Part shown: piece by piece, positions 15,237 to 21,490 of the stretch
Position numbering within the stretch: position 1 is the stretch's first letter
How the letters are laid out: the number at the start of each line of letters is the position of its first letter
Origin: Lysobacter sp. KIS68-7
Lineage (GTDB): Bacteria; Pseudomonadota; Gammaproteobacteria; Xanthomonadales; Xanthomonadaceae
Assembly: GCF_021284745.1 (NCBI RefSeq)
Contig: NZ_CP089925.1
Coordinates: forward strand, 2,479,001 to 2,543,000
DNA length: 64,000 bases
Direction of reading: 5' to 3'
Position numbers and translations under genes: made by a program
Notes under the pieces: model-generated
What the model saw: only the letters and a program-made list of their open reading frames with translations
Databases searched by the model: none
Told to the model about the DNA's origin: nothing

Positions 15237-15312
15237 TGGCGTCCCCACGGGGATTCGAACCCCGGTCGCTACCGTGAAAGGGTAATGTCCTAGGCCTCTA
15301 GACGATGGGGAC
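15237..15312 (-). tRNA. tRNA-Glu (TTC)
   Basis: 76-nt cloverleaf on the - strand with acceptor GTCCCCA/TGGGGAC, D-arm containing TCTAGAGGCCTAGG, anticodon loop CTTTCAC (anticodon TTC), T-loop GGTTCGAATCC and an encoded CCA end. It sits 27 bases downstream of tRNA-Ala on the same strand, so the two are probably one transcript ended by the hairpin at 15195-15236. Confidence 0.97.
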
Positions 15313-15339
15313 AGTAGCGGTTTCCAGCTTGCGTTTTAT

Positions 15340-15415
15340 TGGTGGAGCCAGCCGGGATCGAACCGGCGACCTCCTGCATGCCATGCAGGCGCTCTCCCAG
15401 CTGAGCTATGGCCCC
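15340..15415 (-). tRNA. tRNA-Ala (GGC)
   Basis: 76-nt cloverleaf on the - strand with acceptor GGGGCCA/TGGCTCC (one G-U-type pair), D-arm AGCTCAGCTGGGAGAGC, anticodon stem CCTGC/GCAGG around loop ATGGCAT (anticodon GGC), T-loop GGTTCGATCCC and an encoded CCA. Confidence 0.97.
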
Positions 15416-18045: not shown

Positions 18046-18063
18046 CCTAGGATATCTCCTAGG
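18046..18063. repeat. inverted repeat CCTAGGA/TCCTAGG upstream of the first XafT-like gene
   Basis: Perfect 7-base arms (18046-18052 and 18057-18063) around TATC, ending 7 bases before the ATG at 18071. It could be an operator for the XafT-like gene or part of the Xer accessory region. A related palindrome CCTATAGG lies at a similar distance before the second XafT-like gene (21459-21466). Confidence 0.5.
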
Positions 18064-18086
18064 CCGTAAGATGCATTCCCGGGGGT
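18059..18086. other. partial Xer attachment site A
   Basis: Shares the 13 bases CGTAAGATGCATT (18065-18077) with the dif-like site at 19505-19532: the inner part of the XerD-side arm, the 6-base centre GATGCA (18070-18075) and the first two bases of the XerC arm. The remaining XerC arm is unrelated (TTCCCGGGGGT). It marks the left end of the left cassette. As a stand-alone Xer site it is weak. Confidence 0.5.
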
Positions 18087-19000
18087 CGGCACGCGCCGGC
18101 TACCTGGCGAAACAACCCCGCAGGCCAGTTCGCATTACGTCGGAGCAATTCGAGCGCGAACGCCTCGCCACCGGCATGTCACGCGAGAGTGCAGCGGCAC
18201 TTCTCGGGGTGAGCCTTCGAACGATCGGCAACTGGGAAACGGGGAGGGCGCGTGTCGCCTTCTCCGCCTTCAAGCTGCTGCGCATGATTCGACAGGGCGA
18301 GCTACCCGACGCCGCGTGGAAGGGCTTTCGTGTCATCCGCGGCAAGCTGGTTACGCCCGAGGAGCACGAGTTCCACCCCGGCGACCTGGCATGGCTGTCC
18401 CTGCTGGTCCGCCGCGCCAAGGCGTTCTCCGACCTCCTGCGGGAGCGCGACGGCCTGAGGTCGAACGCGGCGGCAGCCGCGTCGGCCGTGGCCGGGACGC
18501 CCCTCGTGGTGACGTGGCCGACCTCCCGCGCCGGCTCTGCCGGGCCGGCGAAGCCGGCCCTTGGGCTTGTCTATTACTTCAACAAGTCGGACGCGGATTA
18601 TGGAAATGGCTCAACAGAGCGGTTTGCAGGGGTTGTGCGTGGCCCCAACATGGGGCCACAATGGGGCCATGAACACACCCAAGACTCCCGTCCAGAAATT
18701 CAACCTTCGGCTGCCCATGGATCTGATGGAAGAAGCACAGGCACAAGCGCAGGCCATGGGGATCAGTTTCAACTCCTACATGATCCTGGCGCTGCGCAAC
18801 TTCGTGCCGTACATGGCACGGCAACTGAAATCGCACACGCCGACAACGGTAGCTGCAGTGATGCCGCAGAGGAGCATTCCGGCATCAACAACGCGTACTG
18901 CGGCGAAGGTTGGGCGCAACGACGCGTGTCCGTGCGGCAGCGGACGCAAAGCGAAGCACTGCCATCCAGAGCACTGCTGACGGTCGGGGGTGACGCATGA
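18071..19000 (+). CDS. XafT-like (VC1465-family) Xer recombination activation factor, copy 1
   Basis: The ATG lies in the ATGCAT core of attachment site A. Residues ~17-115 contain a helix-turn-helix (MSRESAAALLGVSLRTIGNWETGRARVAFSAFKLLRM) followed by the family-typical LVTPEEHEFHPGDLAWLSLLVRRAKAF. Proteins of this family in the Vibrio TLC satellite phage activate XerD-first recombination at dif without FtsK. Closely similar to the second copy at 20832-21446. The open frame is 309 aa, about 100 longer than copy 2, and its last ~110 codons overlap the ribbon-helix-helix gene in another frame. That tail is probably not native; a lost stop or frameshift near 18560-18660 is likely. Confidence 0.75.
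   Translation: MHSRGSARAGYLAKQPRRPVRITSEQFERERLATGMSRESAAALLGVSLRTIGNWETGRARVAFSAFKLLRMIRQGELPDAAWKGFRVIRGKLVTPEEHEFHPGDLAWLSLLVRRAKAFSDLLRERDGLRSNAAAAASAVAGTPLVVTWPTSRAGSAGPAKPALGLVYYFNKSDADYGNGSTERFAGVVRGPNMGPQWGHEHTQDSRPEIQPSAAHGSDGRSTGTSAGHGDQFQLLHDPGAAQLRAVHGTATEIAHADNGSCSDAAEEHSGINNAYCGEGWAQRRVSVRQRTQSEALPSRALLTVGGDA
18241..18248 (+). other. KOPS-like octamer GGGGAGGG, last on the left side
   Basis: Matches GGGNAGGG on the + strand, inside the first XafT-like gene, 1.26 kb left of the dif-like site. It is the rightmost + strand copy found. Confidence 0.55.
18641..18668. promoter_or_regulatory. palindrome and direct repeat before the RHH gene, candidate operator
   Basis: GGCCCCA (18641-18647) and TGGGGCC (18651-18657) form an inverted repeat around ACA, and TGGGGCC recurs at 18662-18668, directly against the ATG at 18669. 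Tandem half-sites next to the start of a ribbon-helix-helix gene are the usual set-up for autoregulation. Confidence 0.5.
18669..18980 (+). CDS. ribbon-helix-helix (Arc-type) protein with C-terminal SEC-C motif
   Basis: 103 aa. VQKFNLRLPMDLMEEAQAQA followed by GISFNSYMILALRNFV is an Arc/MetJ-type ribbon-helix-helix DNA-binding domain (about residues 7-45). The C terminus NDACPCGSGRKAKHCH is a SEC-C zinc-binding motif like that at the end of SecA. The combination on such a short protein is uncommon. Such small RHH proteins are often antitoxins or cassette repressors; no obvious toxin domain is seen in the gene that follows 16 bases downstream. Cargo of the left Xer cassette. The overlapping longer frame of the XafT-like gene is thought to be spurious here. 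Confidence 0.75.
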   Translation: MNTPKTPVQKFNLRLPMDLMEEAQAQAQAMGISFNSYMILALRNFVPYMARQLKSHTPTTVAAVMPQRSIPASTTRTAAKVGRNDACPCGSGRKAKHCHPEHC

Positions 19001-19485
19001 AGCGCCAGCCTGCGTTCCGTCTTCCCGTTGGGCCGGATGACCTGGTGCGGCATGCGCTCGCTGCGTACTACCGCGCCGTGGGCGATGCGACTGCGCCGAT
19101 TGGCGAGCCGCATCCGCAGGATTGGTCCGACCCCGAAATCTTCATGGACACGCTGATCGACTTCTTTGGCCTGCGGGTGCGTTACGAGGCGTCGATGGCA
19201 GGCTTTAGCGTGGAGGCGGACCACGCGCGCTACCTGGCATGGGCGAACAGCAAGCCCTACGGGCAGATGCACGTGTCGGAGCTGGGGTTGGATGAAACTC
19301 CGGGTGCAGGGGCGGAGCCCCTGCGATATGCCGCCAAGGATGGCGGCGCTGTTCCAGCGGTTGGACCCGCGCTGACGGGCCTTCAAACGGGGCGCGGAAC
19401 CCCGTCTGAAGAACCCGCTTTTTCAGGTGCATCGAGGCAGACTTTGCCGGTCGCCCCGATGCTTGCAAACGTCGACCACGACTAG
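18997..19485 (+). CDS. hypothetical protein, last gene of the left Xer cassette
   Basis: 162 aa from an ATG preceded by GGGGGTG. The first ~100 residues look like a real globular protein (DDLVRHALAAYYRAVGD, EIFMDTLIDFFGLRVRYE, YLAWANSKPYGQMHVSELGLDE). The remainder is low-complexity Gly/Ala/Pro and may be an extension after a frameshift. I do not recognise the family. It may form an operon with the RHH/SEC-C gene 16 bases upstream, and its stop is 19 bases from the dif-like site. Confidence 0.55.
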   Translation: MKRQPAFRLPVGPDDLVRHALAAYYRAVGDATAPIGEPHPQDWSDPEIFMDTLIDFFGLRVRYEASMAGFSVEADHARYLAWANSKPYGQMHVSELGLDETPGAGAEPLRYAAKDGGAVPAVGPALTGLQTGRGTPSEEPAFSGASRQTLPVAPMLANVDHD

Positions 19486-19504
19486 GAGACCGACGCGCAT
19501 GAGC

Positions 19505-19532
19505 ATTGTACGTAAGATGCATTATGCGCACT
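19505..19532 (-). other. dif-like XerC/XerD recombination site (candidate chromosomal dif)
   Basis: Read on the - strand: XerC-side arm AGTGCGCATAA (10/11 match to E. coli dif), 6-base centre TGCATC, XerD-side arm TTACGTACAAT (8/11 match). It is the only place in the window where both arms are recognisable. It lies between two partial copies of itself (18059 and 21429), and KOPS polarity in the window inverts around it. Either the host dif or a recombinant dif re-formed by cassette insertion. Confidence 0.75.
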
Positions 19533-19646
19533 TACGTATCCTCCCAGTGGCCCTGTTGGGCCGTTTGACCATGCCCCACCTCGCCCCGAATGGCAAATCC
19601 TGCCTTTCGGGGCCCAAAAAAAGGCCAGCTAAGCGCCTGCCCTGAG

Positions 19647-19672
19647 TGTCCGCTTTCGGCCAGAAGCGGACA
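19647..19672. repeat. TGTCCGC stem-loop, copy 1
   Basis: Arms TGTCCGCTT (19647-19655) and AAGCGGACA (19664-19672) around an 8-base loop TCGGCCAG. Copy 2 is at 20097-20126; together they bracket the gene at 19684-20031. A run of seven T on the - strand (19613-19620) follows about 27 bases later, too far for a textbook terminator. Resembles dispersed palindromic elements of Xanthomonadaceae genomes. Confidence 0.6.
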
Positions 19673-19683
19673 TTTTCGATTTG

Positions 19684-20031
19684 CTAGACCCGGCGGAAAA
19701 GCAGCGTGCGGCATGGCGCGAACGCAGGCTGCAGCACAGTTTGGCGCCAGCCGGCCGTCGACGGAAAGGCAGCAACCATGGCCGACTCCAACAGAGTGAA
19801 ACCGGGCTGATCTTCTCCAACCACAATTGCTTGGCCGCCAAATGAGAACTCCAAAAAAGCCTCGTCCGTAGTGATCAGGTCGGTTTTGAAGCCCCATATC
19901 TCTGTAACGGCCTGCCAGGCGACAACGTTTCCGCCGACAGTGAACCCAAAGGCAGTGGCTGCCACGGAGACAACCTCGGGCTTTGATCTAATTCTGGAGA
20001 ACCGCTCCATCAGATTCGAAATTGTTCCCAT
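19684..20031 (-). CDS. hypothetical protein, possibly immunity-type
   Basis: 115 aa. VSVAATAFGFTVGGNVVAWQAVTEIWGFKTDLITTDEAFLEF and the closing GWRQTVLQPAFAPCRTLLFRR recall a widespread group of small uncharacterised proteins often found near polymorphic toxins; this is recognition of overall pattern, not a domain hit. Codon use is less GC-biased than in neighbouring housekeeping genes, which suggests transfer. An ATG 21 bases inside (20010, MERFSRIRS) is an alternative start. It stands alone between two TGTCCGC stem-loops within the right Xer cassette. Confidence 0.55.
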   Translation of the reverse strand: MGTISNLMERFSRIRSKPEVVSVAATAFGFTVGGNVVAWQAVTEIWGFKTDLITTDEAFLEFSFGGQAIVVGEDQPGFTLLESAMVAAFPSTAGWRQTVLQPAFAPCRTLLFRRV

Positions 20032-20096
20032 GTACGCCTGACTTCATAGCTGCGCCGACTTGAGCTTATGCAACCTGCGGTTCGGACAACAAGTCG

Positions 20097-20126
20097 AGTG
20101 TCCGCTATGGGTCGAAAGCGGACACT
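20097..20126. repeat. TGTCCGC stem-loop, copy 2
   Basis: Perfect 10-base arms AGTGTCCGCT (20097-20106) and AGCGGACACT (20117-20126) around ATGGGTCGAA. Shares the TGTCCGC/GCGGACA arms with copy 1 at 19647-19672 but has a different loop. Confidence 0.65.
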
Positions 20127-20143
20127 GAGCTTGACCGATTCTA

Positions 20144-20566
20144 CTAGGCCCTTCGGGCGGCCCTTTGGCCACGGGCGCGAGCCTCGGCAAAGCGGTCAGC
20201 AGGAACAAGAGCGGTCACCGCAGGGCTCCGCCCTGCACCCGCCAGCTCCTCCAGAAAGTCCTCGTGCTCGCGTTCCTCGTCCTCGCTCCATGGGCGCTCG
20301 CTGAGATGGCCCGTCTGCAACGCATGCAGGCGCAGGCGCTCGGCGATCTGGAACGTGAGTGCCTCGAAGAAGTCGCGGGCGTTGCCCCAAGGGTCGTCCT
20401 CCACGAGCCAGCGTCCGCCGTTCGGAGGCACCATTTTGTGGCCGGCAGCGAGATAGGCCTTCATGGCCAGCGCGAGGAAAGAGTCGCCGTCGATGAAGAT
20501 GGTCGAGGCGAGAGTCGGATAACGATCGGCCGTCGCGGCGGCCCAAGTTTCAACCTGGCGTGTCAT
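20144..20566 (-). CDS. hypothetical protein, third gene of the right Xer cassette
   Basis: 140 aa, predicted soluble, Glu/Arg-rich at the C terminus. Recognisable stretches are TIFIDGDSFLALAMKAYLAAGHKMVPPNGGRWLVEDDPWGNARDFFEALTFQIAERLRLHAL and SEDEEREHEDFLEEL. I cannot place it in a family. Its ATG overlaps the TGA of the preceding 90-aa gene (ATGA), so it belongs to the XafT-led operon. Confidence 0.65.
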   Translation of the reverse strand: MTRQVETWAAATADRYPTLASTIFIDGDSFLALAMKAYLAAGHKMVPPNGGRWLVEDDPWGNARDFFEALTFQIAERLRLHALQTGHLSERPWSEDEEREHEDFLEELAGAGRSPAVTALVPADRFAEARARGQRAARRA

Positions 20567-20835
20567 TTCGAATCACCTCGTCCTGGTATCGGTTCGGTCA
20601 GAGCGCGCGGCACTTTTGGGCCTCGCTTACCGTCCTGCCTTGCGACTTCTCGCACCCATGCGTCGAGCACACGCACGTCCGCGTCCTTGTGTTGGGCGTT
20701 GAGGTCTTCGAGGCCGTCCCACTGGCGAATTCGAAAACGGATCAGCGCGTTGATCGTTCGCGCGAATGGCTTGAGGTCTTCGAGTGCCCGGCTCGCGACT
20801 TCGATCGGGTCGCCGCTTTCGATAGGCTCGTTCAT
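20563..20835 (-). CDS. hypothetical protein, second gene of the right Xer cassette
   Basis: 90 aa, highly charged and mostly helical by eye (ALEDLKPFARTINALIRFRIRQWDGLEDLNAQ, VLDAWVREVARQDGKRGPK). No family recognised. It is joined to the XafT-like gene upstream and to the 140-aa gene downstream by ATGA overlaps, so the three are translated from one message. Confidence 0.65.
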   Translation of the reverse strand: MNEPIESGDPIEVASRALEDLKPFARTINALIRFRIRQWDGLEDLNAQHKDADVRVLDAWVREVARQDGKRGPKVPRALTEPIPGRGDSK

Positions 20836-21446
20836 GCCGCCTCCCCCTTTTGGCCCGTGTTACTACGTGGGCCAATCGCCCGCCCCGCCTGACCCTTTTC
20901 ACCGGTCGTAACCGGGGAAAAGTCCCGGACGCGCGGAAAGATTGTCCCGACGGTGGTCCATTGGCGCAGTTGCATGTACGGAAATGCCGATGCGCTGGGA
21001 GCGACGGCAGGGGCGCGGGCAACGCTGCGCTCGCGCGCAGCGCAGGCCGCGCCCTCGCCTTCCTCCAGCTTGCGACGCAACTCCGTAAACGCCTCTGCGC
21101 GGCGCACCAGCAGCGACAGCCACGTCAGGTCGTGCGGTTCGAAGGCGTGGTTCTCAGGCGTCACCAGACGCCCGCGAACGAGCGAATAGCCCTCCCAGCG
21201 GGGATCGTTGAGATCCCCGTTCCGGGTCACGCGCAGGAGCTTGAACGCAGCCCACGCTGGCCGCGCCTTGCCCGTCTCCCAATGCCCGATGGTGCGCAAG
21301 CTGACGCCGAGAAATTCGGCGGCCTGCTCCCGGGTAAAGCCCGATTTTTTGCGTTCTGTGGCGAACTGCTCGGGCGTGACAATTGGCGCTTTTCTAGGGA
21401 ATTTCCCGTGTTTTCCGGCTCGCGCCGGATGTCGCCTTGGATGCAT
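20832..21446 (-). CDS. XafT-like (VC1465-family) Xer recombination activation factor, copy 2
   Basis: 204 aa from an ATG formed by the last base of the XerC arm and the centre of attachment site C. The helix-turn-helix reads FTREQAAEFLGVSLRTIGHWETGKARPAWAAFKLLRV, followed by LVRGRLVTPENHAFEPHDLTWLSLLVRRAEAFTEL (about residues 30-135); the Ala/Gly-rich C terminus is probably flexible. Close relative of copy 1, facing it across the dif-like site. A weak ribosome site AGGAAA precedes the XerC arm. The known Vibrio relative activates XerCD recombination at sites lacking a good XerD arm, which fits site C exactly. Confidence 0.85.
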   Translation of the reverse strand: MHPRRHPARAGKHGKFPRKAPIVTPEQFATERKKSGFTREQAAEFLGVSLRTIGHWETGKARPAWAAFKLLRVTRNGDLNDPRWEGYSLVRGRLVTPENHAFEPHDLTWLSLLVRRAEAFTELRRKLEEGEGAACAARERSVARAPAVAPSASAFPYMQLRQWTTVGTIFPRVRDFSPVTTGEKGQAGRAIGPRSNTGQKGEAA

Positions 21447-21456
21447 TATGCGCACT
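21429..21456. other. partial Xer attachment site C
   Basis: Shares 18 bases GATGCATTATGCGCACTT with the dif-like site (19516-19533 and 21440-21457): full XerC arm (21446-21456) and centre. The XerD-side arm (21429-21439, ATGTCGCCTTG) does not match. A good XerC arm with no XerD arm is the design described for the TLC satellite phage attP. It marks the right end of the right cassette. Confidence 0.7.
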
Positions 21457-21464
21457 TTCCTATA

Positions 21465-21490
21465 GGTCAAGGAGACCCTTCTCCTTGACC
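21465..21490. repeat. perfect stem-loop GGTCAAGGAGA/TCTCCTTGACC
   Basis: 11-base perfect arms (21465-21475 and 21480-21490) around CCCT, between the DUF4124-like gene and attachment site C. No U-tract on either side, so a classical terminator is doubtful. It could end the DUF4124-like transcript or act upstream of the second XafT-like gene. A KOPS octamer overlaps its right edge. Confidence 0.6.

Follow-up and report, generated by a model that had tools for sequence, protein, structure and literature searches.

The chromosome dimer-resolution site dif of Lysobacter sp. KIS68-7 was found to be flanked by two small modules, each of which begins at an outer half-copy of dif with a gene of the XafT family. 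The accessible part of PMC9765430 gives XafT as the XerD-activating factor of an integrative mobile element exploiting Xer (IMEX) in Vibrio cholerae. The stretch analyzed here (the window) covers bases 2479001–2543000, or 64,000 nucleotides, of the one-contig 3.25-Mb genome. The left module (A) is 1,446 bp long and the right module (C) 1,924 bp. Their sites and xafT parts are listed by position in the window:

18059–18086, minus strand: outer Xer half-site A; retains the central region and the XerD arm but no XerC arm
18071–19000, plus strand: xafT-A body; ATG in the central region of site A (Pfam DUF3653, 2e-8; NF040522, 101.2 bits)
19484–19501, plus strand: predicted end of module A with the leader; in a circle its ATG (19499), preceded by AGGAG, would be read across the Xer site in the xafT-A frame
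19505–19532, minus strand: intact dif; highest matrix score, at the GC-skew peak, best read as a hybrid
19529–19545, minus strand: predicted end of module C with the leader; GGGAGGA, then a GTG (19531–19529, inside the XerC arm) that a circle would put in the xafT-C frame
20832–21446, minus strand: xafT-C body; ATG (21446–21444) overlapping the central region of site C (NF040522, 100.6 bits)
21429–21456, minus strand: outer Xer half-site C; retains the XerC arm and the central region, next to a degenerate XerD arm

The intact dif consists, on the minus strand, of the XerC arm AGTGCGCATAA, the central region TGCATC and the XerD arm TTACGTACAAT. It scored 44.8 against a matrix of 33 distinct dif sites of the family (this one included), and the runner-up in the window was site C, at 5.5. 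The cumulative GC skew, profiled from 12 to 28 kb, was maximal at 19.5 kb, where dif lies. Two host recombinases passed the NCBIfam cut-offs for XerC (TIGR02224, 360.2 bits; cut-off 335.15) and XerD (TIGR02225, 364.2 bits; cut-off 329.6).

Site A retained the inner XerD arm beside the central region and shared with dif a 13-bp run and 17 of 28 letters; for site C the run was 17 bp and the match 21 of 28. A preliminary description of this DNA had reported two modules flanking a dif-like site, with opposite halves kept at their outer ends. Both points were confirmed, the run at C being 17 bp where 18 bp had been given. In the 21-kb stretch around dif, only A and C showed a run of at least 10 or at least 18 matches in all. 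Throughout the 3.25 Mb, the 13-mer occurred exactly twice (at A and the middle dif), and so did the 17-mer with up to two mismatches allowed (at the middle dif and C). Since the shared words are unique to these pairs of sites, a chance origin of the half-sites is very unlikely. All three sites lie in one orientation, so each module could be excised alone.

The outer gene of each module encodes a helix-turn-helix (HTH) and DUF3653, and both products scored above the 70-bit cut-off of the NCBI-curated model NF040522 ('VC1465 family Xer recombination activation factor'), which bears out their earlier assignment to the XafT family. In xafT-A the conserved HTH and DUF3653 part spans approximately 18071–18553, and the frame continues over the next gene (A2). 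XafT-C was 57% identical, in the best segment, to a module protein of Lysobacter aestuarii. Both proteins also matched PHROG 1668, 'tail assembly protein' (E approximately 1e-9), which we took for a mislabelled HTH family. The two xafT genes point inward and converge on dif, and the 'head-to-head' arrangement first given for the modules was not upheld.

No match to replication initiator, coat or recombinase families was obtained among the seven module open reading frames (ORFs) scanned. Filamentous-prophage genes (replication, coat, Zot/G1p) were not found in the module ORFs either, apart from the PHROG label on XafT. This agreed with the statement that the modules carry no initiator, coat or morphogenesis gene. 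The locus has the features of an IMEX: dif-like sites at both ends, an intact dif, no recombinase family in the scanned ORFs, and XerC and XerD of the host.

Related modules were collected by a XafT search. A first set held 27 loci, of which only L118–L134 (17 loci) were analyzed; a second held 20 stretches from 19 high-scoring genomes, of 144 genomes with matches. Among these 37 loci, 16 small modules had an intact dif at one end and a half dif at the other, and the two of the window brought the set to 18, with lengths of 875–2,728 bp. Membership required that both ends be found and the length be below 2.8 kb, which leaves out longer elements (L179, L182 and L184) as well as XafT genes whose second end was not located. 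A later search gave matches in 115 genomes, three of which were fetched. Hosts of the small modules include L. aestuarii, Arenimonas composti, Polaromonas, Rhodoferax, Xylophilus and several metagenome-assembled genomes. XafT modules of less than 3 kb at dif recur in the Xanthomonadaceae, the Burkholderiales and another family of the class. IMEXs encoding XafT are reportedly widespread in beta- and gammaproteobacteria, as a 2019 PNAS paper on XafT is said to state.

Modules were found as tandem pairs at five loci (L124, L129, L248, L249 and L177). On a viral contig (L196, 1507–4594), three tandem copies of 1,530 bp, with XafT and a SEC-C gene like that of module A, adjoin dif, and a filamentous phage lies on the opposite side. 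Copies 1 and 2 were identical at 1,529 of the 1,530 bases.

Two mirror classes of attachment site (attP) could be told apart among the modules, which keep either the XerC half or the XerD half. XerC-retaining half-sites were on the XerC side of dif, as in TLC (PMC4246890). Those retaining the XerD half (A, L178 and L196, and the longer elements L106, L112, L182 and L184) were on the XerD side. The opposite halves of A and C found further examples in L118 (1,294 bp), with the layout and gene orientation of module C, and L178 (1,599 bp), with those of module A and, by eye, a SEC-C gene too. Because there are two mirror classes, modules can stand on both sides of one intact dif, as they do here. 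Likewise, in genome G072 (L106 9152–9905) DUF3653 genes flank one dif, each reading away from it, and one side is a filamentous prophage. The review literature, in the parts accessible to us, describes three attP classes, none of them XerD-retaining.

The composition of the middle dif was compared with that of a congener, G004, whose dif reads AGTGCGCATAA TGCATC TTACGGGACAT. The outer halves of A and C, if joined, would read AGTGCGCATAA TGCATC TTACGGCCTAG, and the XerD half of site A starts with TTACGG, as does the dif of G004. From this comparison, the middle dif is best read as a hybrid of both elements, which would have taken its XerC arm from module C and its XerD arm from module A. What remains of the old dif would then be the two outer halves.

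In the modules the xafT start is embedded in the Xer site, with a predicted leader that carries a ribosome-binding site and a start codon at the inner end and the body at the outer end. The junction that a circle would form was examined in silico, with random cut points as the control. After circularisation, an in-frame ATG lay within 60 nt upstream in 16 of the 18 modules, against 3.58 expected (P 1.5e-11); with GTG also allowed, 16/18 passed against 5.92 expected (P 2e-7). At the actual chromosomal junction the count was 1 of 16 (2 of 16 with GTG). When one module was kept per group, 9 of 10 passed against 1.69 expected (P 8e-7); this count leaves out module C (WC), Rhodo1b (a failure), Rhodo2a, Rhodo2b, Rhodo3, G367, G407 and G439.

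The leader predicted at the circle junction reads MSIVRK joined to MHSRG for module A, behind AGGAG, and (V)RIMH joined to PRRH for module C, with GGGAGGA before the GTG. For L. aestuarii it would be MKSYNKSVRIMH joined to KGR. The XerD arm of the host gives a stop codon in the xafT frame in 9 of the 12 modules whose xafT body abuts an intact dif. The term 'self-activating', used in the preliminary description, needs a qualifier, since the integrated xafT appears to be separated from its leader.

A precedent comes from the filamentous phage XacF1 of Xanthomonas, which integrates at dif via Xer. According to the accessible part of PMC5666396, integration splits ORF12, a possible regulator within which the attP of the phage is located, and deletion of most of the 5' part of ORF12 delayed integration and destabilized the prophage. 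By analogy, ORF12 offers a precedent for an activator gene split by attP. However, ORF12 matched DUF3693 and not DUF3653, unlike the modules; ORF11 of XacF1 matched DUF3653 slightly below the cut-off. The Stenotrophomonas filamentous phages SMA6 and SMA7 have a DUF3653-like relative. Unlike the modules, XacF1, SMA6 and SMA7 are 7.1–7.6 kb long with replication genes, and SMA7 has annotated capsid and Zot-like genes.

The distribution of these genes was followed in four congeners. G002 and G003 had a single dif, and the DUF3653 gene was not found in them. This indicated that the modules are not fixed in the genus. In G001 a DUF3653 gene lay beside the only site found. G004 carried a different module of 2,460 bp (L210 7547–10034), which has a half-site of its own and a DUF3653 gene of divergent sequence. 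As G004 gave no PF12375 match, its dif was considered as empty; the half-site 2,460 bp away and the divergent gene, seen in a longer stretch, ruled this out, so that G002 and G003 alone count as empty. The G004 module also contains a zinc-ribbon protein and a further ORF, and adjoins a homologue of the gene to the right of module C.

Across the family, the DUF3653 survey gave 39 places in 36 genomes, of which 20 were fetched: eight were picked for a dif known nearby, and 12 completed the 19 highest-scoring places (the genome under study apart). All 20 fetched loci lay within 1 kb of dif and read away from it, and several of them sit in filamentous prophages. A place in G150, outside the fetched 20, was 21 kb from dif.

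The other features of the two modules are the following:

18669–18980, plus strand: A2, a ribbon-helix-helix/SEC-C small protein (SEC-C, 3.4e-8)
18997–19485, plus strand: A3 (162 aa), weak member of the gene X family by hidden Markov models (HMMs)
19644–20129, minus strand: possible insertion in module C, with a 115-aa ORF (19684–20031) between two copies of a hairpin repeat
20144–20566, minus strand: C3 (140 aa), member of the gene X family by HMMs
20563–20835, minus strand: C2 (90 aa), no matches in family searches

The small inner genes had been called cargo. This stood in part only, as some of them belong to a gene family (gene X) common to other such modules. A gene X HMM, built from the last gene of the L. 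aestuarii, G405, G367 and G439 modules, also matched L190, L193 and both L175 copies. With HMMs built without the window proteins, C3 was matched at E 1.3e-11 (four proteins), and also at 2.4e-9 and 6.8e-11. A seven-protein HMM matched 10 of the 18 modules, seven of these being its own training members; three members (BetaMAG, Rhodo2a and G407) had been added by eye, and the four-protein HMM gave E 0.85 for the first, did not list the second and gave 0.025 for the third. A second small gene is shared among modules, clearly in C and weakly in A. Homology to other modules was also seen for A2, of which a homologue, 47% identical, is present in the tandem modules of L196; PADLOC matched A2 alone, at its SEC-C end. 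Structure models of XafT-C (predicted local distance difference test, pLDDT, 65; HTH part good) and C3 (pLDDT 56) were too weak for a fold search.

A PF23343-type rolling-circle replication initiator (Rep) was present in 4 of the 18 modules (G405, G439, G367 and Xylophilus), all of 2.4–2.7 kb; it was called by Pfam in three and by similarity in G367. Rep was not detected in the other 14, modules A and C among them. We infer that the smaller modules are probably Rep-less derivatives. The ratio of nonsynonymous to synonymous substitution rates (dN/dS) of xafT was 0.08–0.10 in three betaproteobacterial pairs with dS below 0.5, and 0.14–0.30 in five pairs with dS above 1; one further pair was saturated. 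Ratios this low argue against simple decay, and the point is clearest in the betaproteobacterial modules.

The 115-aa ORF of module C gave no match in family searches. It is flanked by copies of the hairpin repeat GTCCGCT-N-AGCGGAC (19644–19674 and 20099–20129), a repeat that was counted 24 times within 32 kb of G004. An integron reading of these repeats was dropped, as no integron integrase scored above the cut-off in any of five genomes (G000–G004; attC sites were not searched); weak integrase matches were given by all of 14 control genomes. The modules resemble integron cassettes in that small units stack at one chromosomal site, with a circular intermediate proposed here; the difference is that the recombination site is dif. 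Outside the modules, tRNA-Glu and tRNA-Ala genes (15237–15415) lie approximately 2.7 kb to the left of site A.

Further observations were made on single loci and collections. In L110 (9380–10590, the L133 locus), xafT starts inside dif and is followed, by eye, by an apparent ribbon-helix-helix antitoxin/GNAT toxin pair. L197 is an inovirus-like contig of 7,831 bp, with a 17-bp direct terminal repeat that resembles the core of a Xer site. A Burkholderiales XafT query found no relative among viral contigs, and in the phage collection a Rhodoferax XafT query and the C3 and A3 queries found nothing. The L. aestuarii XafT query gave one partial HTH match, on a plasmid. A circular Inoviridae record of 1,881 bp with a related Rep was set aside, as it had no DUF3653 or HTH match.

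One of the nearest described systems is TLC-phi, a satellite phage of Vibrio cholerae, which shares a XafT-family gene with both modules. The accessible part of PMC4246890 describes its attP as having the XerC arm and central region intact and the XerD arm degenerate, like site C; module A differs in keeping the XerD half. The attP layout of a TLC-type satellite was therefore seen in module C only. TLC-phi also carries an autonomous replication module (PMC4246890, same part), and none was found in the window modules. A literature search, largely of papers outside subscription and some of them accessible in part, returned no title or abstract opening on Rep-less XafT modules, a split xafT or a XerD-retaining attP. 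On our best reading, the modules are minimal XafT-type IMEXs, with mirror attachment sites and an activator gene apparently cut by the attachment site.

We interpreted the locus as a pair of minimal XafT-type IMEXs that XerC and XerD of the host inserted at the chromosomal dif, and would put the probability of this at roughly two in three. The attP of element C would consist of the XerC arm and the central region, as in the TLC layout, and that of element A of the mirror image, the XerD arm and the central region. After each insertion a full dif would remain, together with a crippled outer site, so that a shared hybrid dif would come to lie between an element of one class and an element of the other; the site halves come from the sequence, and the order of events is conjectural. 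In an excised circle, or with a tandem neighbour upstream, leader and body would join in frame, as at the junction built in silico, and XafT would be made. It would then activate XerD for re-integration. A single integrated copy would have xafT without its leader, so that integration would be self-limiting. Rep-less modules may persist by excision and re-integration, and their spread may be aided by co-resident inoviruses or Rep-bearing relatives.

Several results weigh against this interpretation. No excised circle was seen, and a consensus scan found no sigma-70 promoter. The match of A3 to gene X was weak (E 5e-4 with four proteins, 0.004 with seven and 0.07 with three, without L. aestuarii). 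Pairs that include a window xafT have dS above 1 or are saturated, which makes the ratios of 0.14–0.30 rough. In the junction test, A. composti and Rhodo1b were the two failures among 18, and the count of 9/10 omits Rhodo1b. A later set of seven modules passed in four cases, where 1.09 would be expected (P 0.012), and the XafT proteins of the three that failed, G590a, G590b and G615, did not reach the NF040522 cut-off. A strict test that required a Shine-Dalgarno word was passed by 6 of the 18 circle junctions against 2.0 expected, with control rates of 0.10 and 0.15 for modules A and C alone, and the ATG-only test is uninformative for module C (control 1.0).

The window modules themselves weigh against a tight switch. 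An ATG lies in the central region, which leaves both xafT bodies with a start codon in the integrated state. An in-frame chromosomal start behind a Shine-Dalgarno-like word was present at 2 of 16 junctions, and these were the window's own, with starts 6 and 30 nt upstream in C and 96 nt upstream in A. Since both window junctions pass the strict start test on the chromosome, the integrated xafT is only partly disarmed, and the proposed switch is leakier in the window than in its relatives.

Other explanations were weighed against the interpretation as mobile IMEXs. The modules might be immobile remnants: larger elements, TLC-like or filamentous, would have shed their replication and morphogenesis genes and been left with only the attachment ends and xafT. 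The detection of Rep in the four larger modules and not in the other 14 fits such a loss, as do the filamentous prophages with DUF3653 genes at the same place in other genomes, the apparent insertion in module C and the lack of a circle. Mere remnants would hardly be expected to show the low xafT dN/dS of the three close pairs, a leader at one end that is in frame with the body at the other (16 of 18 modules), the near-identical tandem copies of L196 and the retention of gene X in several modules, and we consider this origin unlikely, if still worth serious weight. The position of all 20 fetched DUF3653 loci within 1 kb of dif could also point to host-domesticated xafT-like regulators that adjust Xer recombination, in which case the half-sites would be old scars, although eight of the 20 were preselected and the G150 place is 21 kb away. 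Such regulators are absent from G002 and G003, and in G001 and G004 the genes are different ones, with DUF3653 only; genomes also vary in gene content, side and orientation, and tandem copies occur. Domestication is accordingly a very improbable account.

The preliminary description had likened the modules both to IMEXs and to Acinetobacter pdif modules. The IMEX likeness at a chromosomal dif held. As for pdif modules, moved passively by XerCD and free of an activator, the likeness lies in small Xer-bounded modules in arrays. The Acinetobacter modules have complete, inversely oriented sites in the accessible part of PMC13141974, whereas here all three sites are direct and two are half-sites, and both window modules carry a Xer activator gene. 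Passive movement of this kind is barely credible here. The XafT content of the wider set is no evidence against it, since that set was found via a XafT search. The words 'XafT' and 'activation' are absent from PMC12907356, and 'activation' from PMC13141974. As a whole, the observation first made on this DNA is confirmed, and its interpretation is partly supported.

Xer activation by mobile elements is known from TLC-phi, and a split activator would answer how such an element avoids immediate re-excision and why the TLC-type attP lacks the XerD arm. A broader proposal, which we hold tentatively and at somewhat less than even odds, is that integron-like cassette arrays are widespread at dif: circular, mostly Rep-less modules of approximately 1–2 kb, gated by a split activator that would be whole only as a circle or behind a tandem neighbour, with two mirror attP classes and growth on both sides of one functional dif. 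Under this proposal, the degenerate XerD arm of TLC-type sites would be coding sequence for the activator leader and would lack the stop codon that host arms often have in that frame. Mobility of the Rep-less modules would give many environmental proteobacteria, at their dimer-resolution site, a cassette platform where genes come and go without a dedicated integrase, one that genome surveys seeking integrases or phage genes would overlook.

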